From: Rhizobium oryzihabitans | GTDB taxonomy: Bacteria; Pseudomonadota; Alphaproteobacteria; Rhizobiales; Rhizobiaceae | Direction of reading: 5' to 3' | Assembly: GCF_010669145.1 (NCBI RefSeq) | Contig: NZ_CP048635.1 | Location: 1,075,001-1,139,000, forward strand | DNA length: 64,000 bases | Part shown: positions 4,189-20,038 of the stretch, one piece after another | How the letters are laid out: every line of letters begins with the position of its first letter | Position numbering within the stretch: the stretch's first letter is position 1 | Program-made: the position numbers and the translations under genes | Notes under the pieces: model-generated | Database searches by the model: none | What the model was told of the DNA's origin: nothing | The model's input: only the letters and a program-made list of their open reading frames with translations

Positions 4189-5408
4189 TTAGTTCGTCAT
4201 GTCAAGCAGCTGAAGAACCCGCTGCGCCATATCTGTGCCTCTGTCATCGGCGCGCCAGGCTAATAGCAATGGAACGGAAAATGTCATCGGCAATGGGATT
4301 TTCGTCACCTTGGGGAGGTTATTCCCACGCCGGACGGCAATATCGAACAATATCCGTGGCCCACAATCAGCTGCACTGCCACCGGTATGCTGTCGATCTC
4401 AATCAACTGCACCTTTGATAGCCACGTAGGTCCAAGCAGATGCTCTAGGAAGCTTTCGGCCGTCTGGCGCAGTCCGGAGGCGCGGGAAGGTAGTACCAGA
4501 GGGTGCTTAAGGATCGCCTCGCGCATCTGTGACGGCGAATCTGCATCCGTCAATTCAGGTGCTTCGTGCTGCAGGAAACATGAAAGGTGGCTGCGCAGAA
4601 CCTCACGGCTGAGGAGCCGCGAATTGTTGACTGGCATGTCGACAAGGACTGCATCGTATCGCTGTTGTTCAAGTCCTTCCAGCAGACTGTCTGCAAGTCC
4701 GGGCCGCATCAGCAGCGGTGTGTCGAAACGGCGTGCCCAGTTGGCGGCAATTCGTGCCAGAATAATTGCCGACGGGCTGTCCGTCGTTGCAGGAGGAATG
4801 CCGCCGAATGACCAATGCCGCAAATGCCGCTTGAAACGCAGGGCGGATGTGGAGTCCAGCGCAGCCCAGATGTCGCGTAACTTGTTGACGTGGGGCGATA
4901 TGCGCAGCCCCTCGGGCGACGCGCGCGAGCCGCTGCGGGTCCGTTCAAAAAGCCGGACGCCCAGATTGTCCTCCAGCATCGCCATCATCCGCGTCAGCTG
5001 TGGTTGCCCGATTTGAAGCCTCAATGCGGATTTACGGATCGAGCCAGATTCGAGAATGTCCACGAAGCGGAAGAGTGCAATCAGCGACACGCTTCTCTGA
5101 TAAATATCTTTCGTATGGTCATCGCCGCACTTGCCATGGATCGAGAAGATTTCATGGGCGGCCTGCGCGAGATAAGGGCCAAGTCTCCCGCCTTCCGCCG
5201 TCAGGATCAGGCCTTTTGCGCCCTGCACGAAAAGCTTGACGGAGAGGGCGGTTTCCAGGCGGTTGACGGCGTCCGATACGGTTGAAACCGGAATTCCCGT
5301 TGTATTGGACGCAAGGTGGATGCCGCCGAGCCGAACCACCTGGTCACATAAAAGAATCGTCGAAACCTTCACCGCCCACGCCTCGTCTTGGCCTTCCCAT
5401 TTCGGCAT
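4189..5408 (-). CDS. LysR-type regulator with two tandem winged-helix domains (frameshifted near the end)
   Basis: Likely regulator of the divergent ergothioneine-type operon. The N terminus carries two LysR-like helix-turn-helix domains in a row: one around residues 20-75 (STVSDAVNRLETALSVKLF) and a second around residues 112-170 (QPQLTRMMAMLEDNLGVRLF), followed by a LysR effector-binding region. LysR proteins normally have one such domain and about 300 residues; the repaired protein is about 406. As read, the frame ends at 4305 after ILPSGVG. Adding one G to the GGG run (4324-4326 on the plus strand) restores a normal LysR tail with the sequence LLLAWRADDRGTDMAQRVL and a stop at 4189. The effector is unknown; thiourocanate or ergothioneine would be a sensible guess. 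Confidence 0.8.
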
Positions 5409-5480
5409 CGTCTGTCCGGATTTTGGGATATACCACTAATTTAATTGTGCCTCATAGTCGAAATATGACAGGAGGACGAC
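5409..5480. promoter_or_regulatory. Divergent promoter region between LysR and the amidohydrolase operon
   Basis: A 72-base AT-rich gap between two divergent starts, the place where a LysR regulator usually binds its own and the target promoter. An AGGAGG ribosome binding site lies at about 5470-5475 before the ATG at 5481. No operator could be defined with confidence. Confidence 0.5.
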
Positions 5481-6863
5481 ATGGCGGATTTCGATACGGT
5501 TTTGGCGGGACGGGTCATTCTGACCGACCGCGAGATTTCTCGAGGTTTCGTGGCCATTCGCGAGGGGAAAACGGCACTCATCGGAGAGGGGCCGGCGCCG
5601 GCTGGACGAGAAAATCATGATTTCGGCACCGGCCTTCTATTGCCTGGCGCCATAGACGCACAGGTGCATTCGCTGTCGCAAAAGGGGGCCGAAGGTTTTG
5701 CGGCCTCGACCCGTGCGGCGGCGGCGGGCGGCGTCACGACAATCGTGGACATGCCCTATGATGAGGGCAATCTTGTGTGTTCCGCCGAGGCCGTCAGGCG
5801 CAAGGTCGCGATGATCGACGAAGAGGCGCGCATCGACGTTGCGCTTTATGGCACTGTCGATCCGCAAGAGGGGTCTGCCCGCATTGCCGAACAGGCGGCG
5901 GCGGGAGTTTGCGCCTACAAATTCTCGACCTTCGGCACAGATCCTCAACGCTTTCCGCGTATCCCACCTGCGCTGCTTCGCGCCTGTTTCGCCGAGATTG
6001 CAAAGACCGGGCTTGCCGCTGGCGTGCACAATGAGGACGACGCCTATGTCCGCGCCGCGATTTCCGAGGTGGAGGCATCCGGTATAACCGACTGGCGTGC
6101 GCACGGTCTGTCACGTCCCGAACTGGCCGAGACGCTGGCGATGCTGCAGATTTACGAAACTGGCGCCGAGACGGATTGCCCGGCGCATGTCGTCCATTGC
6201 TCCGTCAGCCGCGGCTACGAAATCGCCGAGATGTATCGCAGGAACGGCCGATATTCCTCCGTCGAATGCTGCATTCACTACCTTGTTCTGGATGAGGAGA
6301 ACGATGTCGCGCGGCTTGGCGGCAAGGCCAAGATCAACCCGCCGATACGCGCCCGCAAAGAAGTGGAGGCGATCTGGCGCCATCTGGCGGAAGGGCGGGT
6401 GTCGATGGTGTCTACCGATCATGTGAGCTGGAGCGAGGACCGCAAGACCAATCCCGATATGCTGAAAAATGCCTCTGGCGTCCCGGGGCTGGAGGTGATG
6501 GTGCCGCTCTTCGTCAAGGGCGCGATCGCACGCGGTGTGCCGCTGGTGTGGGCGGCCCGGCTGATGGCCGAAAATCCGGCCCGGCATTTTCGTCTGGATC
6601 ACCAGAAAGGCGGGTTGCAGGTCGGGCGTGACGCCGACGTCATGGTGCTCGTCGATCGGCCCATGGTGTATGACGCAACCACCAGTCCTCACTCCATTGC
6701 GGGGTGGTCGCCTTATCACGGCATGGAACTGCCCTGGACGGTCGCAGCCACCTGGCGGCGAGGCGAGATGGTCTTTGACGGTGAAAACGTGCTGGCTGCG
6801 CCGGGGACTGGCATTTTTGTGCGGCCGCCCGAAACACTTGGTCTACGCAAGGTGCTGTTGTGA
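5481..6863 (+). CDS. Cyclic amidohydrolase, likely hydantoin-5-propionate amidohydrolase
   Basis: A 460-residue member of the amidohydrolase superfamily (allantoinase/hydantoinase/dihydroorotase branch), which opens cyclic amide rings. Metal ligands visible are the carbamylated-lysine candidate K147 (AYKFS), H183 (GVHNEDD), H239 (VVHCS) and D313 (STDHVSW). The first metal motif, HxH in the family, reads Q61-V-H63, so one usual histidine is replaced. It is the first gene of the rightward operon and overlaps the next by ATGA-type coupling. With the downstream N-carbamoyl amidohydrolase and desulfurase, the predicted step is hydantoin-5-propionate to N-carbamoyl-glutamate. An allantoinase role is less likely because no other ureide gene is near. 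Confidence 0.75.
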   Translation: MADFDTVLAGRVILTDREISRGFVAIREGKTALIGEGPAPAGRENHDFGTGLLLPGAIDAQVHSLSQKGAEGFAASTRAAAAGGVTTIVDMPYDEGNLVCSAEAVRRKVAMIDEEARIDVALYGTVDPQEGSARIAEQAAAGVCAYKFSTFGTDPQRFPRIPPALLRACFAEIAKTGLAAGVHNEDDAYVRAAISEVEASGITDWRAHGLSRPELAETLAMLQIYETGAETDCPAHVVHCSVSRGYEIAEMYRRNGRYSSVECCIHYLVLDEENDVARLGGKAKINPPIRARKEVEAIWRHLAEGRVSMVSTDHVSWSEDRKTNPDMLKNASGVPGLEVMVPLFVKGAIARGVPLVWAARLMAENPARHFRLDHQKGGLQVGRDADVMVLVDRPMVYDATTSPHSIAGWSPYHGMELPWTVAATWRRGEMVFDGENVLAAPGTGIFVRPPETLGLRKVLL

Positions 6864-8101
6864 TGCGCCGCAATCTCGACGCGTCAATAAAGGACATAGA
6901 AGCGGATCTCGACGCACTGGCGCAGATTACCGATCCGGAACGTCCCTGGACCCGCCGCGCCTTCTCGCCCCGTTTTGATGAAGGGCGCGACTATCTTCGG
7001 CGACGTTTCCTGGGTGAAGGATTAAATGTCTCGACGGATGCGGGCGGGAACCTGATCGGCCGCCGCGAAGGTACCGAGCCGCAGGCCGGAACGATCATGC
7101 TGGGTTCGCATTCCGACACCGTGCCGGACGGCGGACGTTTTGATGGTGTTGCCGGTGTCGTCGTTGCATTGGAGGTCGCACGCATTCTCTCGCGGCGCGA
7201 TGTTGCCTTGCGGCACAACCTGGCCGTCGTCGATTTTCTTGCTGAAGAAGTCTCCATTTTCGGCGTTTCCTGCATCGGTTCGCGAGCGATGGCGGGCGTT
7301 CTGCCGCAGGACTGGCTGAGGCGTATCAGTAACGGGCGCGATCTGGCGACGGCCATACGCGATGTGGGCGGCAAGCCGGAAAGTCTTGAAGCTCCCTTGG
7401 CTGATGACCTGAAGGCCTTTCTGGAACTGCACATCGAGCAGGGGCCGGTTCTCGAACGGGAAAAGATTGCGCTTGGGGTGGTGACAACCATTGTCGGCAT
7501 CAATCGCGTCGAGATCGAGGTGACGGGTCGTCCCGATCATGCCGGCACGACCCCGATGGGGTTGCGCGCGGATGCCCTCGTCGCTGCGGCGCGGATCGTA
7601 AGTGAGATCGAGCGGTACGCGACGGAGCTTTCCCGTGGTCCCGGCCATTTCACCGCAACTGTGGGCGAGTTCGAAATCTCCCCCAACGCCGCCAATGTGG
7701 TGCCGGGCCGGGTCCGCATGCTGGTTGATATCCGCGCCGAGCGGGCCGAGGACAAGGAAGCATTCGTATCCTGGCTGACCGGACTTGATGCGGACGGTGA
7801 AAACGCGATCGAGGCGCGGTTGATTTCCGCCAATCCCGGCGTGCAGATGGATGATGGATTGCAGGAGACGCTGGCAAAGGCCGCCGATGGGCTGGACACG
7901 CCCTATCGAAAGATGGTGTCGGGCGCGGGTCATGACGCGGCATTCATGGCACGGCTATGTCCTTCGGCGATGCTCTTCGTCCCTTGCCGCGACGGTCGGT
8001 CCCATTGCCCGGAAGAATGGGCCGATGCAGCCGATCTCGCTTTGGCGGCTGAAGTTCTGGCGAACACGATTATGGAATTGGACAGAAAAAGGGAGGGCTG
8101 A
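6863..8101 (+). CDS. Zn-dependent N-carbamoyl-L-amino acid amidohydrolase, likely N-carbamoyl-glutamate specific
   Basis: A 412-residue M20/amidase-hydantoinase family enzyme that removes a carbamoyl group as CO2 and ammonia. The metal-binding blocks are present: GSHSDTVPDGGRFDG near residue 90, the EE pair at about 130, LELHIEQGP near 192, and GAGHDAAFM near 355. The dimerisation-lid motif with the conserved GRPDHAGTTPM is at about 224. ATG at 6863 overlaps the upstream TGA (ATGA); a GTG three bases earlier is possible. Position between a ring-opening hydrolase and the desulfurase suggests the final step to glutamate. By sequence alone allantoate amidohydrolase is an alternative. Confidence 0.75.
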   Translation: MRRNLDASIKDIEADLDALAQITDPERPWTRRAFSPRFDEGRDYLRRRFLGEGLNVSTDAGGNLIGRREGTEPQAGTIMLGSHSDTVPDGGRFDGVAGVVVALEVARILSRRDVALRHNLAVVDFLAEEVSIFGVSCIGSRAMAGVLPQDWLRRISNGRDLATAIRDVGGKPESLEAPLADDLKAFLELHIEQGPVLEREKIALGVVTTIVGINRVEIEVTGRPDHAGTTPMGLRADALVAAARIVSEIERYATELSRGPGHFTATVGEFEISPNAANVVPGRVRMLVDIRAERAEDKEAFVSWLTGLDADGENAIEARLISANPGVQMDDGLQETLAKAADGLDTPYRKMVSGAGHDAAFMARLCPSAMLFVPCRDGRSHCPEEWADAADLALAAEVLANTIMELDRKREG

Positions 8102-8103
8102 AA

Positions 8104-9195
8104 GTGGCCAGAATTCTGACGGAGAAGGATGTGGAACCCGCGGTGCGGGGAGGCGCGGTCTATGCGGCAGGGGGTGGCGGCTGGGTCCACCACGGACGGA
8201 TGCTGGGCTATGCCGCGGTGAACGCCGGTGCGCCTGAACTCGTCTCCATCGACGAATTGAACGAAGATGACTGGGTGGCGACGGCTGCCGCCATCGGTGC
8301 GCCGGCCTCCACGACGCCCTGGGAAATGCGGGGCGTGGATTATGTCAAGGCCGTGCAGCTTTTGCAGGATGAGCTTGGTGCGAAGGTCGCGGCCCTGATG
8401 ATCGGGCAGAACGGCAAGTCCTCGACCCTCAACGCATGGCTGCCTTCGGCTATCCTCGGCTGCAAGGTGCTGGACGCGGTGGGTGACATGCGCGCCCATC
8501 CGACCGGCGACATGGGGGCGATCGGCATGGCCGGTAAACCGGACCAGTCAATTCAGACGGCGGTTGGCGGAAATCGCGATCAGAACCGCTATATCGAACT
8601 CGTAACGCGCGGCGCAACTGGCCGCATTTCTCCCATCCTGCGCACGGCCTCCGACATGTCGGGCGGTTTCATCGCCTCGGCCCGCAATCCGGTTCGCGCC
8701 GGCTACGTTGCGAAGAATGCGGCGCTCGGCGGAATTTCCAAGGCGCTGGAGCTTGGTCACGCAATCCTCGCCGCCGAACCTCGAGGGCATGCGGCCGTTC
8801 TCGACGCGATCCTTTCGACCACCGGCGGCAGGATCATGATTGAAGGAGAGATCACGGCGAAGGATGTCGTTTATACGAATGAGGCTTTCGACGTCGGTAC
8901 GGTCACCATCGGCAGGGGCGATGCGGCGCTGACCCTGCATGTGATGAACGAATACATGGCGGTCGATGCGGTCGATGGCCGTCGTCTCGCAACCTTTCCG
9001 GACGTCATCACCACATTGTCGCAGGAGATCGAACCGCTGTCTGTCGGTGAGCTGAAGGTAGGCATGAAGATCCACCTGCTGCATGTCCCGAAGACCCTCA
9101 TTCCGATCGGCGCGGGTCTGATGGACCCGGCGATCTATGTCCACCCCGAAAAGGTCATGGGTATCAACCTGACCAACTACGCATTGGAGGCCTGA
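8104..9195 (+). CDS. DUF917/S-methyl-thiohydantoin desulfurase family protein, likely thiohydantoin-propionate desulfhydrase
   Basis: A 363-residue protein with the glycine-rich N terminus (AVYAAGGGGW near residue 20) and overall layout of the DUF917 family, now linked to desulfuration of thiohydantoins. In ergothioneine breakdown, hydration of thiourocanate gives a 2-thiohydantoin-propionate that must lose sulfide to become hydantoin-propionate; this gene fits that step. GTG start at 8104 is chosen because GGGAGG lies 7 bases upstream, three bases after the preceding stop. Family membership is recognised from sequence; substrate is inferred from neighbours. Confidence 0.7.
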   Translation: MARILTEKDVEPAVRGGAVYAAGGGGWVHHGRMLGYAAVNAGAPELVSIDELNEDDWVATAAAIGAPASTTPWEMRGVDYVKAVQLLQDELGAKVAALMIGQNGKSSTLNAWLPSAILGCKVLDAVGDMRAHPTGDMGAIGMAGKPDQSIQTAVGGNRDQNRYIELVTRGATGRISPILRTASDMSGGFIASARNPVRAGYVAKNAALGGISKALELGHAILAAEPRGHAAVLDAILSTTGGRIMIEGEITAKDVVYTNEAFDVGTVTIGRGDAALTLHVMNEYMAVDAVDGRRLATFPDVITTLSQEIEPLSVGELKVGMKIHLLHVPKTLIPIGAGLMDPAIYVHPEKVMGINLTNYALEA

Positions 9196-9197
9196 AG

Positions 9198-10856
9198 ATG
9201 CCGAGAGAAAATCCCCGCAATCCCGGCTTCCCGATCCCTTCAGGCCCAGACCTTCGCGCGAAGGGCTGGCGGCAGGAAGCGCTGCTGCGCCTTATGGAAA
9301 ACGTGCTGGCTGTCGGTGAAGACCCCGAAAACCTCGTCGTCTACGCAGCACTCGGGAAGGCGGCCCGCAACAAGGCCGCATATGATGCCATCGTACGCGC
9401 ATTGACGACCATGGATGAGGATCAGACACTCGTCATTCAGTCGGGAAAGCCGGTCGGCTTGATGAAGACTTCGACCGAGGCCCCGATGGTCATCATGGCC
9501 AATTGCAACATGGTCGGCCAATGGGCCAAGGCCGAGAATTTTTATGCTCTCGAACGCAAGGGCCTCATATGCTGGGGCGGCCTGACTGCGGGGGCATGGC
9601 AATATATCGGCTCGCAGGGCGTCATTCAGGGCACCTATGAAATCTTCATGCGCATTGCCGAACGCCGCTTCGGCGGCACGCTGAACGGGCGTTTCGTATT
9701 GACCGCGGGCCTTGGCGGCATGGGAGGCGCACAGCCGCTTGCCGGCCGCATGGCGGGCGCGGCCATCCTGTGCGTGGAGATCAATCCGGAACGGGCCCGC
9801 ACCCGCAAGGATATCGGCTATCTGGACGAGATTGCCGATGATCTCGATAGCGCACTGGCGCGGATTGAAGAGGCCCGTTCGAAGGGTGAGGCGCTGTCCG
9901 TCGGCCTTGTCGGCAATGCAGCGGAAATCTATCCCGAAATAGCCGCGCGCGGGATCATCCCGGATATAGTGACCGACCAGACCTCCGCCCACGATCTCGT
10001 TTATGGCTATATTCCAATCGGTTACGATCTGGAACGGGTACGCCGCCTGCGCAGCCAGAATCCGGATGAGCTGATCGAGGCTGGCAGGGCGTCGATTGCC
10101 AAACAGGTAACAGCCATGCTGGAATTCCAGCGGGCCGGCTCGGAGGTTTTCGACAATGGCAACCTGATCCGCACGCAGGCGCAGGCCGGCGGCGTTGCTG
10201 ACGCCTTCGACATTCCGGTCTTCACTGAAGCTTATCTGCGCCCGCTGTTCTGCCGGGCGATTGGTCCCTTCCGCTGGATGGCCCTGTCGGGCGAGGCCTC
10301 GGACATTGCGCGGATAGACGAGCTGGTGCTGGAGATGTTTCCGGACAACAAGATCGTCACCAACTGGATTTCACTGGCGCGCAAGCATGTTCCGTTCGAG
10401 GGGCTGCCGGCGCGCATCGCCTGGCTCGGCCATGGCGAAAGAAGTGCACTCGCACGGCGGGTCAACGCTCTGGTCGCTTCGGGCGAATTGAAGGGGCCGG
10501 TTGCCTTCTCTCGCGATCACCTCGATTCAGCGGGCATGGCGCATCCGAATATCATGACGGAGAACATGCTCGACGGTTCGGACGCCATCGCCGACTGGCC
10601 GCTTCTCGATGCGATGTTGCTCTGCGCTTCGCGCGCCGACCTCGTCGCGCTTCATTCCGGCGGTGGGGGATATGCGGGTTTCATGACCTCGGCAGGGGTC
10701 ACGATCGTCGCTGACGGCACCAATGCGGCTGACGACCGGCTTTCGCAATCACTCGACAATGATACCGGGCTCGGCGTCATCCGTTACGCGGATGCGGGCT
10801 ATGCCGAGGCACAGGATGAAATTGCCAGCAAGGGCATAAATCACGTGCAGATCTGA
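9198..10856 (+). CDS. Urocanate hydratase homologue, likely thiourocanate hydratase
   Basis: A 552-residue protein aligning along its whole length with HutU urocanate hydratases, which use tightly bound NAD+ as an electrophile. The NAD-binding TAGLGGMGGAQP (about 169-180), the TDQTSAHD block and LRPLFCRAIGPFRW (about 345-358) are kept. Two pocket regions differ: where HutU has an arginine in an RETE-type motif after DHLDS, this protein has HPNIMTE (about 449-455), and LHHGGG becomes LHSGGGG (about 485). No hutH, hutI or hutG is present, and a desulfurase-family gene directly precedes it, so thiourocanate is the more likely substrate. Ordinary HutU remains possible. Confidence 0.75.
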   Translation: MPRENPRNPGFPIPSGPDLRAKGWRQEALLRLMENVLAVGEDPENLVVYAALGKAARNKAAYDAIVRALTTMDEDQTLVIQSGKPVGLMKTSTEAPMVIMANCNMVGQWAKAENFYALERKGLICWGGLTAGAWQYIGSQGVIQGTYEIFMRIAERRFGGTLNGRFVLTAGLGGMGGAQPLAGRMAGAAILCVEINPERARTRKDIGYLDEIADDLDSALARIEEARSKGEALSVGLVGNAAEIYPEIAARGIIPDIVTDQTSAHDLVYGYIPIGYDLERVRRLRSQNPDELIEAGRASIAKQVTAMLEFQRAGSEVFDNGNLIRTQAQAGGVADAFDIPVFTEAYLRPLFCRAIGPFRWMALSGEASDIARIDELVLEMFPDNKIVTNWISLARKHVPFEGLPARIAWLGHGERSALARRVNALVASGELKGPVAFSRDHLDSAGMAHPNIMTENMLDGSDAIADWPLLDAMLLCASRADLVALHSGGGGYAGFMTSAGVTIVADGTNAADDRLSQSLDNDTGLGVIRYADAGYAEAQDEIASKGINHVQI

Positions 10857-10959
10857 CAGGTCAAAGCGAGGAGACGCCATCAATCGCCACGAAGGGCGGA
10901 AAATTACGATCACCAATCAACATCGCCTGCTGCCACCGGCAGGCCAAGAGGGGACAATA

Positions 10960-12267
10960 ATGGAAAAAACATATCAAAATTTGTCAGTGACACCGGCCAG
11001 ACGGTCATCACCGGAGCGCGCTGTTGCGGCAGCATCGATAGGCAACGCCCTGGAATGGTATGACTTCACCGTCTATGCGCTGTTTGCAATCTACATCGCC
11101 CATAATTTCTTTCCCGGCGGCGATCACACGGTCGAACTCGTGAGAGCCTTCCTCGCCTTTGGGCTAGGCTTCGTGATCCGCCCCCTGGGAGCCATCGTGA
11201 TCGGGGTCTATGGCGACAAGGCCGGCCGAAAGGCCGCACTGTTCCTGACCATCATGATCATGGCGGCGGGCACCCTGCTGATCGCGGTGGCGCCGACCTA
11301 TGCCGCGATTGGTGTGGGAGCGCCGCTCATGATCCTTGCCGGACGAGTCCTTCAGGGCTTCTCTGCGGGTGGAGAAATCGGCGGAGCGGCCGCCTTTCTT
11401 GTCGAACATGCGCCCGCTGATAAGAAAGGCAAATATGCTTCCTGGCTGCAGGCAAGCATGGCGATTTCCAACATCATGGGTGCACTCGTCGCCTTTGCGG
11501 TTACCTCGCTTCTGACGGAGCAGGAGATCGGAGACTGGGGCTGGCGGATTCCGTTCTTCATTGGCGTATTGATCGCGCCGGTGGGTCTTTGGTTGCGCAA
11601 GACGCTGGACGAAACGCCGGCTTTTCAGGCTGAACAGGCAAGTCTGGAGAACCAGTCCGCCAAAACACCCCTGAAGCTCGTCTTCTCGGACTATTTCGGC
11701 CATCTGATCAAAGGCTTCGCTTTCTCGATCCTGTGGGCGGTTTGCGTTTATGTGCTGATCATCTACATGCCGATCTTCGTTCAGCGTGCTTTCGGTTTCA
11801 GCCCTTCGGAGGCGTTTACGGCATCGCTGATTGGTAACGTCTTCCTTGCCGTCGGTTGCGTCAGCGCCGGCAGCATTTCGGACAGGATCGGTCGACGCTT
11901 GATGCTCGCCATTGCCGCCGGCGCAATGCTGGTCGCTGTCTATCCCCTGATCTGGTGGCTGCAATCTTCGCCGACGCTGACGACGCTCATCATCGTGCAA
12001 AGCCTCTTCTGCATCATGGTCTCGGGATATGTCGGGGTCGCGCCCGCAACCCTCTCTGAGGTTTTCCCGACGAATATCCGCACCACCGGCATGTCATTGG
12101 CCTACAATGCCGCCGTAACGATCTTCGGAGGATTTGCCCCGGCGACGCTGACGTGGCTTGGCAGCACGGGCATCGGTTATCACGCGCCCGGATTTTACGT
12201 CATGGCCGCCGCATTCATATCGCTGATAGCGGTCCTGATCCTGCCGAAGCCGTATTCCACGAACTAA
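10960..12267 (+). CDS. MFS transporter of the metabolite:H+ symporter (MHS) family
   Basis: A 435-residue, twelve-helix inner-membrane symporter. The N-terminal NALEWYDFTVY and the loop GDKAGRKAAL are typical of the MHS group that includes ProP and citrate or shikimate carriers. It starts 103 bases after the hydratase and precedes the exported lyase, so it belongs to the same operon or regulon. If the lyase works in the periplasm, this carrier would import its product (thiourocanate); otherwise it may import ergothioneine itself. The choice is inference. Confidence 0.8.
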   Translation: MEKTYQNLSVTPARRSSPERAVAAASIGNALEWYDFTVYALFAIYIAHNFFPGGDHTVELVRAFLAFGLGFVIRPLGAIVIGVYGDKAGRKAALFLTIMIMAAGTLLIAVAPTYAAIGVGAPLMILAGRVLQGFSAGGEIGGAAAFLVEHAPADKKGKYASWLQASMAISNIMGALVAFAVTSLLTEQEIGDWGWRIPFFIGVLIAPVGLWLRKTLDETPAFQAEQASLENQSAKTPLKLVFSDYFGHLIKGFAFSILWAVCVYVLIIYMPIFVQRAFGFSPSEAFTASLIGNVFLAVGCVSAGSISDRIGRRLMLAIAAGAMLVAVYPLIWWLQSSPTLTTLIIVQSLFCIMVSGYVGVAPATLSEVFPTNIRTTGMSLAYNAAVTIFGGFAPATLTWLGSTGIGYHAPGFYVMAAAFISLIAVLILPKPYSTN

Positions 12268-12409
12268 AGGAGATGGGCCGCTCAAGGCCCAGCTCGCCCA
12301 ATTGCTCCACCCGTCATGTCTGGAAGTTTCCAGTCGAAGCGAAGCCGTTTCGACGCCGGACAGTGCTGCAAACATGACGGCATAATAATAACCAACACAA
12401 GGGAACATC

Positions 12410-14074
12410 ATGTCTGTTAAAAACGGGACTATTCATCGCCTCTCCATTGTCACAGCTTTTGCGATCGCCGGGTTTGCTGCTTCAAACGCACGGGCGGAAC
12501 ATTGGTCCATCGACGGTCAAAACCTGACCGTGGAACAGGTCGTCGGCCTGGCGCGGGACGGCAACGCCAAAATTACTCTCACCGAGAGCGCGGGCAAACG
12601 GATCGCCGAAGGCTTCGATCTGGTGATGGAGGCCGCCCTGCAAGGTAAGGCGGTCTATGGCCTCACGGTCGGCGTTGGCTGGAACAAGGATCGCCCAGTT
12701 TTCGCGATGAAGGACGGCAAGCGCGTGCTGGACGACGATCTGCTGAAACTGTCACGTGCTTTCAATTCGACATCCCTGCGCGCGCATGGCGCAGGCGTGG
12801 GCGAGCCGATGGCGGTCGAGGCCGTGAGGGCGGGCATGGCGATCCGTCTAAACCAGATTGCAACCGGCCGAACCGGCGTTCAGAGTGCTGTCGCGGAAAT
12901 GTATCGACATTTTCTGGAGCAGGGGATTACCCCGGTCGTTCCTTCACGCGGTTCTGTGGGCGAGGCGGATATCACCCTTGCCTCCCATATCGGTCTGGCG
13001 ATGGTCGGCGAGGGGGAGGTCTTCATGAAAGGCAATCGCATTCCCGCAGCGCGTGCCTTGGCAGAGGCCGGCATCGCTCCGCTCGAACCGGTTGGCAAGG
13101 ATTTCCTTTCGATCCTCAGCACGAATGCGCTGACCGCCGGGCAGGCTGCCCTGCTGGCGCACGACACGGCGGGTTATCTCCAAAAGGAAGCGGTAGTCTT
13201 TGGTTTGGCACTGGAAGGTTTTAACGGCAATGTCGCCCCTTTCCTCGCGGCGACGAACGAGTTGCGCCCCTTTGCCGAAAACACATCCGGGGCACTGATG
13301 GTTCGCTCTGCCCTTGACGGCAGCTATCTCTGGTCGCCCGCGAAGGATCGGGCGCTGCAGGACCCACTGTCTTATCGCACTATGGCCTATGTGCTTGGCG
13401 GAGCCGAAATTGCAACGCAGGATTTGACCAAGGCGCTGGAAATCCAGATCAATCACAGTGATGACAATCCGGGCGTGGTTGCGGGAGCCTCGGACGACAA
13501 GGCTTCCGGACAGGTCTCCCAGTATTTTATCGAGGGCGAAGTATCGGGAGCGATCTATCCGAGTGCGGGTTTTGAGATGTTGCCGGTGGCCTCGAGGGTT
13601 GAAACACTGAACACGGCACTGGTGCGTCTGTCGCAGGCCATTACGATGCAGACGATCCGCTTCGAAAACCCGGACATGACGCATCTTTCGCGGTTCCTTG
13701 CTGCTGAAACCAATCAAGGACATGCGTTTGGTGCGATCCAGAAGCCGCTCGTCGCGCTTCTCGCCGAAAACCAGCAGATCGGCGCGCAGGCTCCCGTCGG
13801 CTCGATTGCGATGGCAGGAAATATCGAGGATCTGGACAGCCACGCACCGCTTTCGGTCGCCAATCTCAGCCGAATTCTGGATAATCTTTACTGGATGTCC
13901 TCGATCCAGTTGCTACATGCGGCGCAAGCCGTTGATCTGCGCAAACCCGGGCAGTTGGGGGCGGGAACAAAAGCGCTGTTTGAAGATTATCGCCGCAATG
14001 TGCCCTTTGTGGCGGTGGACCGAATATATAGCAATGATTTCAGTACGGGTTATCGGTTTCTCAAGGCCCGTTGA
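12410..14074 (+). CDS. Exported MIO-less ammonia-lyase-fold enzyme, likely ergothionase
   Basis: A 554-residue homologue of histidine/phenylalanine ammonia-lyases. The first 29 residues form a signal peptide ending in ARA, so the mature protein should be periplasmic. The loop tyrosine (Y83 in VYGLTVGVG) and the QDPLSYR arginine are kept, but the GSVG-ASG-D motif whose ASG forms the MIO cofactor reads GSVG-EAD-I (181-188), one residue shorter. Without MIO the enzyme cannot act like HutH. Ergothionase, which eliminates trimethylamine from ergothioneine, is a known MIO-free member of this fold, and the neighbouring genes supply every later step of that pathway. Export of the enzyme is unusual for the family. 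Confidence 0.8.
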   Translation: MSVKNGTIHRLSIVTAFAIAGFAASNARAEHWSIDGQNLTVEQVVGLARDGNAKITLTESAGKRIAEGFDLVMEAALQGKAVYGLTVGVGWNKDRPVFAMKDGKRVLDDDLLKLSRAFNSTSLRAHGAGVGEPMAVEAVRAGMAIRLNQIATGRTGVQSAVAEMYRHFLEQGITPVVPSRGSVGEADITLASHIGLAMVGEGEVFMKGNRIPAARALAEAGIAPLEPVGKDFLSILSTNALTAGQAALLAHDTAGYLQKEAVVFGLALEGFNGNVAPFLAATNELRPFAENTSGALMVRSALDGSYLWSPAKDRALQDPLSYRTMAYVLGGAEIATQDLTKALEIQINHSDDNPGVVAGASDDKASGQVSQYFIEGEVSGAIYPSAGFEMLPVASRVETLNTALVRLSQAITMQTIRFENPDMTHLSRFLAAETNQGHAFGAIQKPLVALLAENQQIGAQAPVGSIAMAGNIEDLDSHAPLSVANLSRILDNLYWMSSIQLLHAAQAVDLRKPGQLGAGTKALFEDYRRNVPFVAVDRIYSNDFSTGYRFLKAR

Positions 14075-14244: not shown

Positions 14245-15854
14245 CTATCGTGCCACCTCTGCCGAAAACGCGGATTTGATCAGTGTTTTGGTATATTCAG
14301 CCGTAGGCCTGTCGAATATCGCGTCCGTTTCTCCCTCCTCGACAATCTTCCCGTTTTTCATGACGATGACGTAATCCGAAATGGCCTTGATCACGGAAAG
14401 GTCGTGGCTGATGAAGATGTAGGAAAGGCCATGTGTCTTCTGCAAACCACGCAGCAGGTCGATAACTTGTCCCTGAACGGATCGGTCCAGCGCAGATGTG
14501 GGTTCGTCGAGAATGACGACATCCGGCTTGAGGATGATCGCGCGGGCAATTGCGATACGCTGACGTTGTCCGCCTGAAAACTCGTGCGGGTAGCGGTTGC
14601 GGGCAGCGGGGTCTAGGCCGACTTCTTTCAGAGCGGCGATTGCCCGCTCGTCTCGCTCTGCGCGGCTGAGCTGTGGCTCGTGCACAAAAAGGCCCTCAGT
14701 GATGATCTCTCCAACAGTCTGTCTTGGCGAAAGAGATCCATAGGGATCCTGAAACACAAGCTGCAGCTGCCGCCGCAAGGGCCTCATTGCCTTACGATCA
14801 AGTCCGGTGATTTCCGTCTTGCCGAAGAAAATCTGGCCTTTTGACGGTGCCAGGCGAAGAAGTGCACGACCGAGCGTGGATTTGCCTGATCCGGATTCAC
14901 CGACGATGCCGATGGTCTGCCCTTGATGAAGGCTGACATTGACGCCGTCCACGGCGCGAAACTCCCGCGACTTCGACAGGAATCCGCCCGGAATCACATA
15001 ATCAATCGTCACGTTCTGGCCAGCGAGAACGACCGGCTTCGCTTCACCGACAGGCGGCTTGTGCCCGCTGGGCTCGGCATCGAGAAGCATCTTGGTATAG
15101 TCCGCCTGCGGGCGTTCGAAGATGTCTTCCGTTGTACCGGCTTCAACGATCTCGCCGCGGCGCATTACCGCAACACGATCGGCAAAATGCCTGACCACAC
15201 CCAGATCGTGCGTGATCAACACCACGGCCATGCCGAAGCGTCGCTGCAATGACTTCAGAAGATCGAGAATCTGCGCCTGGATTGTCACGTCGAGCGCGGT
15301 GGTTGGTTCATCCGCGATCAGAATATCGGGCTCGTTTGCCAGTGCCATGGCGATCATGACGCGCTGGCGCTGTCCCCGGAAAGCTCATGCGGATAGCTGT
15401 CGATGCGCCGCTCCGGCTCCGGAATCCCCACGAGCTTCAGAAGTTCGAGAACGCGTGCCCGCGCTTCCTTCTTGCTACCGCCCCGGTGGTGGACGATGGG
15501 TTCCGCGATCTGCGCGCCGATCCTGTAAAGCGGATCGAGCGAGGTCATCGGCTCCTGGAAAATCATGGTGATTTTCGCGCCACGAATAGTGTTCAGTTCG
15601 TTGACCGGCAGGTTTATCAACTCACGTCCACGATATTTGGCAGAACCCTGGATGACGCCGTTGGAGGAGAGCAGTCCCATGATGCCCATCATGGTCTGGC
15701 TTTTGCCGGAGCCGGATTCTCCGACAACGGCAAGCGTTTCCCCCTGTTTGACATCGAGATCGATGCCTTTGACGGCGTTCACCGTGCCGTCCGGCGTCGT
15801 GAAATCGACCTTGAGATTGCGGACAGTGAGGATGGTTTCAGATGTCGTATTCAT
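14245..15854 (-). CDS. Dual ATPase of an oligopeptide/dipeptide ABC transporter (frameshifted)
   Basis: Two ABC ATPase domains fused in one chain (repaired length about 536), energising peptide-type uptake. Both Walker A motifs (GESGSGKS) are seen, and the C-terminal half has an intact signature FSGGQRQR and Walker [13 protein letters not shown]. The first signature is broken: the frame reads [12 protein letters not shown] and stops, while [18 protein letters not shown] would be restored by one more base in the CCCC run at 15374-15377 (plus strand). ATG at 15854 lies 1 base after the permease stop. It forms an operon with two permeases and a binding protein. Confidence 0.85.
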
Positions 15855-15855
15855 G

Positions 15856-16986
15856 TCAACGATCCTTGGGATCGAGTGCATCACGCAACCCGTCGCCCAC
15901 AAAATTGAGCGAGAACAGGGTCAGCACGAAGAAGATTGCCGGAAATATCAATAGCCACGGGGCTGATTGGATATTGTTCGCGCCTTCGGAAATCAGCGCT
16001 CCCCAACTCGTCAGTGGCGCCTGCACGCCAAGCCCGAGGAAGGAGAGGAAACTTTCCAGAAGAATGACTTTGGGTACGACAACCGTGACGAACACGACGA
16101 CGGGGCCGATCGTATTCGGAATGATGTGGCGGCGGATGATCTGCCAGTCGGTCAGGCCCAAAGCCTGGGCCGCACCCACGAATTCCCGCCGTTTCAGGGC
16201 AAGTGTCTGGCCACGCACGATACGGGCCATATCCAGCCACTCCACCGCACCGATGACCAGGAAGATCAGGATGAAGCTGCGCCCGAAAAAGACCACGAGA
16301 ACGACGACCAGGAAGACGAAGGGGAGCGAATAGAGGATTTCGACGAAACGCATCATCACATTGTCGACGCGCCCACCGATGTAGCCCGCCGTTGCGCCGT
16401 AAAGAACGCCGATGCCGAGCGAAACGAGACTGGCGAGAACGCCGACGGCGATGGAGATCTGACCGCCCAGCATGACGCGAGCCAGCATATCGCGACCGTT
16501 GGAATCCGTGCCGAAGAAGAAGTATTCGCGATTGACATCGCCTTCCAGCTTCAGCGTTCGACCATCATCTTCCGTTGCAACGACCTTCGTGTTTTCGAAT
16601 TCGTTGGCGCGGTCGAAATACCGTGTCGTGCGCGGGTCGATCGGGTCGCTGGATGTGACGGTTGCCGTGAAGGTCTGGCCTTCGACGTAAAACTCCTTCA
16701 GCTCCACGCGGGCGCGGCCTGCCACACCTTCCATGACGCTCTGGAGATTGTTGACGTCCGGCCGCGGCTCAAGGCTTGGTGCGACGGAGACATAGGACGA
16801 AAACACCTGATCATAGGTGTGTGAAAGGAAATGCGGGCCGATAAACGAGAAAAGCGTGATCAGCACGAGCATGATGGAGCCAGCCATGGCGGCTTTGTTT
16901 CGTCTGAAACGCATGGCGGCAAGCTGGAACAGGCTTCGGCTTTTCACCGATGGTTGAGGGGCGATATTGCCGGAGATATCAGTCAT
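15856..16986 (-). CDS. oppC: Peptide-type ABC transporter permease (OppC-like)
   Basis: A 376-residue inner-membrane permease with the N-terminal OppC extension (FRRNKAAMAG) and the EAA-type loop (EFVGAAQALGLTDWQIIRRH) that contacts the ATPase. A long soluble insert after the first helix is longer than in many OppC proteins. ATG at 16986 overlaps the end of the other permease by 8 bases, which supports it over the upstream ATG at 17130. Substrate is not readable from sequence. Confidence 0.88.
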   Translation of the reverse strand: MTDISGNIAPQPSVKSRSLFQLAAMRFRRNKAAMAGSIMLVLITLFSFIGPHFLSHTYDQVFSSYVSVAPSLEPRPDVNNLQSVMEGVAGRARVELKEFYVEGQTFTATVTSSDPIDPRTTRYFDRANEFENTKVVATEDDGRTLKLEGDVNREYFFFGTDSNGRDMLARVMLGGQISIAVGVLASLVSLGIGVLYGATAGYIGGRVDNVMMRFVEILYSLPFVFLVVVLVVFFGRSFILIFLVIGAVEWLDMARIVRGQTLALKRREFVGAAQALGLTDWQIIRRHIIPNTIGPVVVFVTVVVPKVILLESFLSFLGLGVQAPLTSWGALISEGANNIQSAPWLLIFPAIFFVLTLFSLNFVGDGLRDALDPKDR

Positions 16987-17957: not shown

Positions 17958-19552
17958 TTATTCGGAAACGCTCAGGAAGCGGCTGAGGTGTTCGTTAGCA
18001 GCATTGTCTTCCCAACCCTTCACGCGGTTGGAAACCAGCCACAGGTCTGCCTGCGTCAGAAGCGGAGCGACCGGCTGTTCTTTCATGAGGATGGTTTCTG
18101 CCTCATGCAGCAGCTTGGAGCGAGCTGCCGGATCCTTTTCGTCATATGACTTCTGCATCAGCGCGTCATATTCGGCATTGTTGAACTTCGAATAGTTGAA
18201 GGTCTTGTTGGAGGATATGGAAAGGGCGAGGAAGTTTTCCGCATCCGCATAGTCGGCAACCCACCCGGCACGCGCCACGTTGAACTTGCCGCCTTCCTGG
18301 AGATAGCCATAGTGCGAGGCGACGTCGAGGTTCACCAGCGATACCTTCGCGCCAAAGGTGTTCTTCCACATATCCGCGATAGCCGTTGCGACGCGTTCGT
18401 GGTTCGGGTTGGTGTTGTAGCGGATTTCGATGGAAAGCGGCTTGCCGCCCTCACCGTAACCGGCTTCCTTCATCAGCTTGAGGGCCTCGTCTTCACGATC
18501 AAGCTGCGACAGCGTGGCAAAATCGGCTTTTGCGGGTTCACCGTAGGAGTCCATGCCCGGGGAACCATGGAATAGGCGGGAACCTGCGAACCGCTGTAGA
18601 TTTCCTTGGCAAGGAAATCGCGGTCGACTGCCATGGACAGAGCCTGGCGGACACGGACATCGTCATACGGCGCTTCGCGTGTGTCGAAGGTGTAATAATA
18701 GGTCGCAAGCGTCGGCGAAACGTGAACCTGTTCGCCATAGGACTTGCGCAGACGGTCGATCTGGTCCGCGGAAAAATTATACGCGAGGTCCATTTCCTTG
18801 GCTTCGAAACGACGGACGGATGCGGCCTGATCATCGATCGGGTAGAAAATGACCTTGTCGATCTTGGTGTTCGATGCGTCCCAGAAGCTGGTGTTCTTGA
18901 CGACCGTCAAGCTGTCATTGGGAACATGCGCTTCGAGCTTGTAAGCACCGTTCGAGACCATGACGCCCGGCTTTACGAAGTCGGTGCCGTTCTTTTCGTA
19001 ACTTGCCTTCGAAATTGGCAGAGCCGCCTGGTGAGCGAGGAGCTCAACGAAGAAAGGTGTCGGGCGCTCAAGCGTGATCTCAAGGGTCTTGTCATCCACC
19101 GCCTTGACGCCAAGCTGGTCAACCGGCGTTTCGCCCTTGTTGATCTTTTCGGCGTTCTTGATCGGGTAGAGAATATTCGCATATTTGGCTGCGGTCTTCG
19201 GGTCTTCGACGCGCTGGTAGGAGAAAACAAAATCTCCAGCCGTTACCGGCGTGCCATCCGACCACTTTGCATCCGCACGCAGTTTGAACGTGTAAACGGT
19301 GCCATCCTCAGAAAGCGTCCAGCTTTCTGCCGTCCCGGGAATGATCTTGCCGGCGGCATCGTAAATGGTGAGACCTTCATAAAGGTCTTTCAGGATAAAA
19401 GCTTCGATGTTGATGGAGGTCTGCGCCTGATCGAGCGTCTGCGGTTCCCCGGCATTGCCACGATGCAGAACTGTTTCTGCAAATGCGGAACTGGCGCCAA
19501 TCAGAAGCGATCCCACCAGCAGGGTGGCGCGAGTTGTTGCTGTTATCGACAT
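17958..19552 (-). CDS. oppA: Periplasmic oligopeptide-binding protein (OppA-like, frameshifted)
   Basis: Substrate-binding protein of the ABC operon, family 5, repaired length about 531 residues. A signal peptide is seen at residues 1-24 (ending SSAFA) and the body has the OppA pattern AKWSDGTPVTAGDFVFSYQR. The frame breaks at plus-strand 18556-18562 (CCCGGGG): one extra base turns VPRAWTPT into VPPGMDSYG, the usual VPPG motif of this family, and joins the second half without loss. It is the first gene of the operon. The true ligand is unknown; an uptake role for a sulfur- or histidine-derived compound cannot be judged. Confidence 0.85.
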
Positions 19553-20038
19553 TGTTTTCTCTCCCCGTGAGTATTTTGAGTCCACAAACAAGGCCAAATT
19601 GCTCCGAAGTGCAACCACAATAAATTGTGAGTTCATGCGCAACCATGACTTTCAGTTTGGCGGACGTGCCCGGCATCCCAAGCTTGAGTCGGCGGTTCCG
19701 GGGAAGTGCGGTTGCGGACGGGGAGACGGGCGCAATCGGCTCGTTCCAGACGATCATGATTGATCTCAATCAGTTAATTCGCAATCACCGTGCCCGCTCT
19801 GATCCGATCTGTCGTGCTTACAAAGGGAAGCCGCTTGCGTCGTGGCCATCCGTTCTGACCATCGCTGGCTATTGCCGATAGTGTCAAAAAACTCGTGGAT
19901 TGACAGCCGATACCCCTGTTTCGGTCCTGCGCCATGCGCCCTTTACCGAAGTGTAAGTTCCGGCCGAGACCGTCGTAAGCTGGGGCGCTCATATTCCCGC
20001 CAGGTGCACCATTCCGGTTCGCCCGATTGGAGTAGATC
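19553..20038. other. Divergent intergenic region (oppA / PepSY)
   Basis: 486 bases between the leftward opp operon and the rightward PepSY gene. It must hold both promoters. The only clear element found is the 19-bp motif at 19945-19963, listed separately. No gene or RNA was recognised. Confidence 0.5.
19945..19963 (+). promoter_or_regulatory. Putative response-regulator site, copy 1
   Basis: ACCGAAGTGTAAGTTCCGG, 76 bases before the PepSY gene. It matches the reverse complement of 21904-21922 at 17 of 19 positions. A further GTAAG lies 22 bases downstream (19975-19979), the two-turn spacing of direct repeats bound by OmpR-class regulators. The nearby two-component system is the natural candidate to bind it. 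Confidence 0.5.

Follow-up and report, generated by a model that had tools for sequence, protein, structure and literature searches.

An ergothionase-type lyase with a predicted export signal in a rhizobial ergothioneine cluster: thiourocanate as the probable imported product

Introduction

On which side of the inner membrane is ergothioneine first cut? This question is raised by a gene cluster in a 64,000-nucleotide stretch of Rhizobium oryzihabitans DNA (contig NZ_CP048635.1, positions 1,075,001 to 1,139,000; the whole stretch is referred to as the window). Ergothioneine is an antioxidant known from mushrooms, the diet and soil, and its loss to microbes is debated. The five-enzyme pathway from ergothioneine to glutamate is already known. 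The ergothioneine cluster in the window (4305-14074) comprises five enzymes, a transporter of the metabolite:H+ symporter (MHS) family and a divergent LysR regulator. As discussed below, the lyase carries a predicted export signal, and hence the first cut probably takes place outside the inner membrane, with thiourocanate as the imported product. This division of the pathway between two compartments, which sequence comparison makes likely, is apparently undescribed and would be a new element on a known pathway. The features of the cluster are as follows.

4305..5408, minus strand: LysR-type regulator with two N-terminal HTH_1 domains and a LysR_substrate domain (Pfam); C-terminus shortened by a frame difference
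5481..6863, plus strand: ErtD, hydantoin-5-propionate amidohydrolase, a cyclic amidohydrolase (NF058538)
6860..8101, plus strand: ErtE, N-carbamyl-L-glutamate amidohydrolase (NF058540)
8104..9195, plus strand: thiohydantoin desulfurase, S-Me-THD or former DUF917 fold (NF058529)
9198..10856, plus strand: thiourocanate hydratase, urocanase-type (NF058530, 7ned, diagnostic columns)
10960..12267, plus strand: MHS-family transporter, proposed thiourocanate importer (Sugar_tr/MFS_1 in Pfam, cluster context)
12410..14074, plus strand: ergothionase-type trimethylamine lyase without the methylidene-imidazolone (MIO) triad, predicted exported (6s7j match, fold search)
12410..12496, plus strand: signal peptide of the lyase, residues 1-29, proposed cleavage after ASNARA (n-h-c pattern, model)
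12950..12973, plus strand: position of the MIO loop in the lyase, codons 181-188, triad absent (alignment with HutH and Treponema ergothionase)

In the proposed mechanism, ergothioneine would cross the outer membrane, and an exported ergothionase would remove trimethylamine from it in the periplasm to give thiourocanate. The MHS symporter would import thiourocanate, a carboxylate, which cytoplasmic thiourocanate hydratase, thiohydantoin desulfurase, ErtD and ErtE would convert to L-glutamate, sulfide, ammonia and CO2. The divergent LysR would regulate the operon.

Identity of the cluster enzymes

A preliminary description of this DNA had listed seven genes and read them as ergothioneine degradation. 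All seven are present in the order that it gave, as judged from open reading frames, Pfam and NCBIfam. Equivalog assignments were made with NCBIfam release 20 by comparing each score with the model cut-off. Four of the five enzymes exceed the cut-offs of equivalogs for ergothioneine breakdown, the lyase being the exception: ErtD (NF058538, 754.5 bits versus a cut-off of 600), ErtE (NF058540, 599.8 versus 520), the thiohydantoin desulfurase (NF058529, 560.2 versus 440) and the thiourocanate hydratase (NF058530, 1044.8 versus 930). ErtE scores still higher with the generic Zn-dependent hydrolase model NF009531 (671.3, cut-off 486). The desulfurase and the hydratase fall below the cut-offs of the S-methyl variants (NF058532, 282.4 versus 450, and NF058531, 747.1 versus 880, respectively).

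With 788.7 bits against 607 for the next chain, the top solved relative of the hydratase is 7ned, which is labelled 'Urocanate hydratase' in the PDB and which we take to be a thiourocanate enzyme. Moreover, 52 columns tell 42 thiourocanate-hydratase rows apart from 24 urocanase rows (the 42 rows represent 41 of 43 loci and the window; columns were selected at or above 97% and 95%), and the window hydratase has the thiourocanate-type residue at every one of them. The four equivalog matches, together with the closeness of the lyase to ergothionase (6s7j/6s7q), support the earlier reading; the cluster almost certainly serves ergothioneine catabolism, the reactions of its enzymes being predicted from characterised relatives. 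It had also been expected that automatic annotation would misname the genes as histidine or allantoin catabolism. This failed for four enzymes, which NCBIfam names correctly, and held for the lyase, which passes no NCBIfam cut-off (hutH, 229.8 versus 539.15) and whose close relatives carry the names histidine, phenylalanine or HAL/PAL/TAL-family ammonia-lyase in the sources.

The lyase and its relation to ergothionase

The lyase matches PF00221 (aromatic amino acid lyase; 390.9 bits). Its top solved relative is the Treponema ergothionase (6s7j/6s7q, E 6e-81), and the alignment that had been proposed as a check on its identity gives 36% identity over 486 columns. In a fold search with the AlphaFold model of the lyase (mean predicted local distance difference test score, pLDDT, 87.8), 6s7j ranks first (template modelling scores 0.82/0.92). 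Alignment with the HutH of the same genome indicates that the Ala-Ser-Gly MIO triad is absent, with GSVGEADIT replacing GSVGASGDLA, as the preliminary description had recognised; the lack of MIO in ergothionase is stated in PMC13405746. In addition, HutH departs from the ergothionase type at 12 columns, D351 and K445 included, that do not vary across the 16 ergothionase-type rows. These comparisons suggest that the lyase is of the ergothionase type, and elimination of trimethylamine from ergothioneine is its predicted reaction.

Other lyases of this superfamily were seen in related settings. At locus L159 (7814-12606), a lyase with an intact MIO triad lies beside a thiourocanate hydratase (963 bits) and a thiohydantoin desulfurase (599 bits). 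D351 and K445 also differ in this enzyme, K93 and N148 do not, and it is perhaps a thiolhistidine ammonia-lyase. An orphan second MIO-less lyase with a leader-like N-terminus lies beside hut genes in two relatives, at L234 (9265-10911, minus strand) and at the same place in L235; it is 41% identical to the window lyase and 55% to the type found in genomes of family f66. We speculate that its substrate might be hercynine and its product urocanate, which would then enter the hut pathway. Finally, aromatic-lyase homologues in L220, L223, L225 and L227 (genomes of family f66) have GSVGYL in place of the MIO triad.

Export signal of the lyase

The lyases of clusters with genes for ergothioneine breakdown (ert genes) are of two types. 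In the tree, 37 rows of window-type lyases group into a single clade (support 100/97) whose sister is the Treponema enzyme (98/94), and the leaderless-type lyases form a separate clade of 19 rows (100/100); long branches were flagged, the Treponema row included, which leaves the relation between the two types uncertain.

The N-terminus of the window lyase reads MSVKNGTIHRLSIVTAFAIAGFAASNARA-EH, and an AxA-type site, ARA, precedes E30. The protein (own-genome copy L039) fits the n-h-c signal-peptide pattern as defined by a pattern rule. Residues 1-29 have pLDDT < 50 in the model, with a helix at 8-23, and the alignment shows that the Treponema ergothionase chain lacks a signal peptide. Of the 49 distinct window-type lyases, 30 of which are from Shewanella, 45 show the pattern, versus 1 of 28 leaderless-type lyases. 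Among the other ert enzymes it was found in 0 of 232 (hydratase 0/60, desulfurase 0/67, ErtD 0/54, ErtE 0/51); the MHS transporters likewise lack it (0/23), and the solute-binding proteins, which served as positive control, have it in seven of nine cases. A cruder hydrophobicity rule finds a leader in 112 of 120 among the matches listed (120 of 1312 relatives). These results suggest that the lyase is exported via Sec to the periplasm. The preliminary description overlooked this signal peptide and tacitly took ergothioneine itself to enter the cytoplasm, which the predicted export makes doubtful.

Transporters that accompany the two lyase types

What, then, crosses the inner membrane? Fifty-six ert-gene loci besides the window were compared: 49 from surveys (every genome above the survey cut-offs except the window's own) and 7 of the 37 found in a search with the window lyase, the remaining 30 being Shewanella loci with no other ert gene, which were left out. 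A window-type lyase is accompanied by an MHS transporter at 17 loci and by a tripartite ATP-independent periplasmic (TRAP) transporter at one (Photobacterium), such that 18 of 18 window-type ert loci have an importer of the carboxylate type (MHS or TRAP) versus 0 of 25 leaderless-type loci. Of the latter, 21 are without MHS, TRAP and OpuAC, and four have a betaine ATP-binding cassette (ABC) system with OpuAC. In family f66, 8 of 12 ert clusters combine MHS with an exported-type lyase.

The closest substrate-named model for the window MHS is that of the tricarballylate transporter TcuC (357.8 versus 445, not passed); the ProP model is not passed either and scores lower (272.8 versus 544). Together with its setting, this makes the MHS transporter a candidate thiourocanate importer.

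Clusters without a lyase bear on the same question. Four such loci have MHS, four have TRAP and five have no known importer (L132, L134, L146, L157 and L159). Among these five, L132 and L134 are cut by contig ends, L146 has a leaderless lyase elsewhere on the contig, the L157 genome has no ergothionase, and L159 has the MIO-bearing lyase described above. According to whole-genome searches, the eight clusters that retain MHS or TRAP lie in genomes without an ergothionase-like PF00221 protein: G544, G443, G541, G460, G1397, G1439 and G1403 have one PF00221 protein each and G1451 has two, and the MIO triad was read in those of all eight genomes but G541. The retained importers are similar to those of lyase-bearing clusters. 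The four MHS proteins (L204-L207) are 60-63% identical to the MHS of the window and of the three f66 loci compared, the binding proteins of the four TRAP loci share 41-45% identity with their counterpart next to the exported lyase of Photobacterium, and three DctM proteins are 47-51% identical to that of Photobacterium (unrelated DctM, 26-32%). Since ergothioneine breakdown by this route is impossible without a lyase, the retained importer would serve another cargo, for which thiourocanate is the simplest candidate.

Weighing the evidence

Several points weigh against a periplasmic cut followed by import of thiourocanate. The signal-peptide test is our own pattern rule and not a trained predictor; it misses four of the 49 window-type lyases (L005, L008, L009 and the fragment L036), and three rows of the 37-row clade (P0079, P0085 and P0092) do not pass the cruder hydrophobicity rule. 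A Fisher test of lyase type versus importer gives 1.6e-12, a value that overstates independence because the genomes are related. Moreover, the profiles for transporters and lyases were derived from proteins of these same loci, 7 of the 18 window-type loci came from the search with the window lyase, and the lyase classes in the locus count were set by profile score and not by leader. As 21 of the 25 leaderless loci have none of the profiled importers (other kinds of transporter were not searched systematically), the contrast rests on four betaine transporters. In L204, the one lyase-less MHS cluster among L204-L207 that was scanned closely, the thiourocanate hydratase and MHS are separated by a porin and a UbiD-family decarboxylase (10786-13249), and because of these two genes the substrate imported there may be another compound. 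Finally, in Photobacterium (L006:15726-17313) a second, leaderless MIO-less lyase in several broken frames lies beside the exported one.

The best-surviving alternative is that MHS imports ergothioneine intact and that all five steps are cytoplasmic, the hydrophobic N-terminus of the lyase being a non-working export signal. The MHS family does include the betaine/proline symporter ProP (272.8 bits versus 544, as given above), the Treponema enzyme has no leader, and a 2020 review (PMC7653990), in its available text, takes ergothionase in A. radiobacter to imply ergothioneine transporters. For this cluster type, the present comparison suggests the contrary: the leader pattern is kept in 45/49 window-type lyases, and MHS or TRAP is retained in eight clusters without ergothionase and found at 0/25 leaderless-type loci. 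Intact import is therefore considered unlikely.

Less probable still is that the main substrate of the cluster is the oxidised form, ergothioneine sulfonate. The Treponema enzyme is reported to act on the sulfonate as well. A citation in the available text of PMC13405746 suggests that probably the same genus is concerned. Against this stands that the hydratase and desulfurase are equivalogs for the thio forms, which would presumably not be needed in a sulfonate route. A paralogous histidine/urocanate or allantoin pathway was rejected as highly improbable: the hydratase does pass TIGR01228 (hutU, 698.5 versus 375), but the ergothioneine-route equivalogs score higher, the lyase lacks the MIO triad, the genome has a separate hut set, and the allantoinase models are not passed.

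A periplasmic ergothionase cut with subsequent thiourocanate import hence remains the likely reading. A literature search that covered few subscription primary papers found no description of a periplasmic ergothionase, which does not imply its absence from print. The available main text of PMC13405746 contains neither 'periplasm' nor 'signal peptide', and PMC4621440, in the part available, treats other periplasmic enzymes.

Shewanella and the wider picture

At 30 of 30 Shewanella loci (L008-L037), a homologue of one flavin adenine dinucleotide (FAD) protein immediately precedes the window-type lyase, and at none of these is another ert gene nearby. The FAD protein of L019 belongs to the flavocytochrome-c family (TIGR01813, 483.9 versus 285.45), and a twin-arginine-like leader is present on all seven N-termini inspected. 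Because the lyase adjoins a flavocytochrome-c-like reductase with no other ert gene near, use of its product in the periplasm is probable there. Periplasmic reduction of thiourocanate, possibly as thiourocanate respiration, is the natural inference. The urocanate reductase of Shewanella offers a parallel for periplasmic reduction. Use of thiourocanate by a gut anaerobe has been reported (Zhou 2025, as cited in the available text of PMC13405746).

A broader proposal, which we favour by a narrow measure, is that across a wide class of proteobacteria ergothioneine stays outside the cytoplasm, with thiourocanate, formed there by an exported ergothionase, imported by dedicated MHS or TRAP transporters, scavenged by bacteria that lack the lyase and, in Shewanella, used as electron acceptor by the paired flavocytochrome-type reductase of the periplasm. 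Should the first cut lie outside the inner membrane, both of its products, trimethylamine and thiourocanate, would be released within reach of neighbours, lyase-less bacteria would be predicted cross-feeders, and searches for transport should target a carrier of thiourocanate instead of one of ergothioneine. The corresponding genomic rule would be a leader with MHS or TRAP, or no leader with a betaine ABC system where an importer is seen.

Genome context and distribution

The window genome encodes two PF00221 proteins, the lyase discussed here and a HutH with the MIO triad; HutH and one ordinary urocanase lie ~11-15 kb upstream of the cluster. For ergothioneine biosynthesis, no EgtD-type PF10017 match was found in the window genome (the control matched in 2 of 14 genomes). 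At E <= 1e-100, 6 of 37 genomes of the genus (own included) have the lyase, and none of 24 further genomes in the order does. Thiourocanate hydratase was found in 12 of 249 genomes in a family-level survey and, at E <= 1e-250, in none of 369 genomes in a survey of the class of G249, which gave no match anywhere and indicates no more than a rare or patchy gene there. The distribution of the cluster is patchy.

Locus architecture

ErtD and ErtE overlap by 4 bases, the ErtE-desulfurase and desulfurase-hydratase gaps are 2 bases each, and 103 and 142 bases precede MHS and the lyase, respectively. The 15.5 kb surrounding the cluster are 97% identical to Agrobacterium genomosp. 13 CFBP 6927 (L001), which places the genome in Agrobacterium. 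The cluster had been taken to start at 4189, which is approximately where LysR ends in relatives; the LysR frame in the window already stops at 4305 through a single-base frame difference, and intact copies are present in L001, L002 and L005. Relative to L001, broken frames affect LysR (4305-5408), an ABC ATPase (14245-15902) and a solute-binding protein (17958-19642), all intact in relatives. Because several frames are broken within 15 kb, assembly errors rather than decay are suggested.

Two HTH_1 domains were seen in the LysR of the window and in 9 of 10 scanned ert-cluster LysR proteins (L001, L003, L004, L127, L135, L161, L150, L007 and L157; exception L006). Those of L150 and L007 are 605-635 aa as open frames. 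A literature search on LysR with tandem helix-turn-helix (HTH) domains found no matching paper.

Comparison with known systems

Five-step bacterial ergothioneine catabolism was reportedly worked out by Beliaeva, Leisinger and Seebeck in 2021. The same five enzyme types are present in the window, four of them over equivalog cut-offs; the differences are that the window lyase is predicted to be periplasmic and that an MHS transporter adjoins it. To our knowledge, a compartment split is not part of that earlier account. The Treponema denticola ergothionase (6s7j, 6s7q) is the top match of the lyase in sequence and fold and shares the lack of MIO and the invariant residues. It differs in being only 36% identical, in having no signal peptide and in lacking two stretches of the window enzyme, roughly residues 100-112 and 358-378.

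Ergothionase is on record in Agrobacterium radiobacter according to the available text of a 2020 review (PMC7653990), and that of Burkholderia sp. HME13 is named as BAM63550 in the available text of PMC13405746. The f66 clusters that combine MHS with an exported-type lyase would parallel the HME13 system if f66 is Burkholderiaceae, which is a guess. Within the same family and class, ert clusters with a leaderless-type lyase (for example L127, L148 and L160) mostly share the downstream enzymes with the window, and the tandem-HTH LysR of the window recurs in three of three scanned (L127, L135, L161). Their lyase, in contrast, is 24-27% identical to that of the window, has no leader and belongs to a separate clade, with a betaine ABC importer in 4 of 25 loci.

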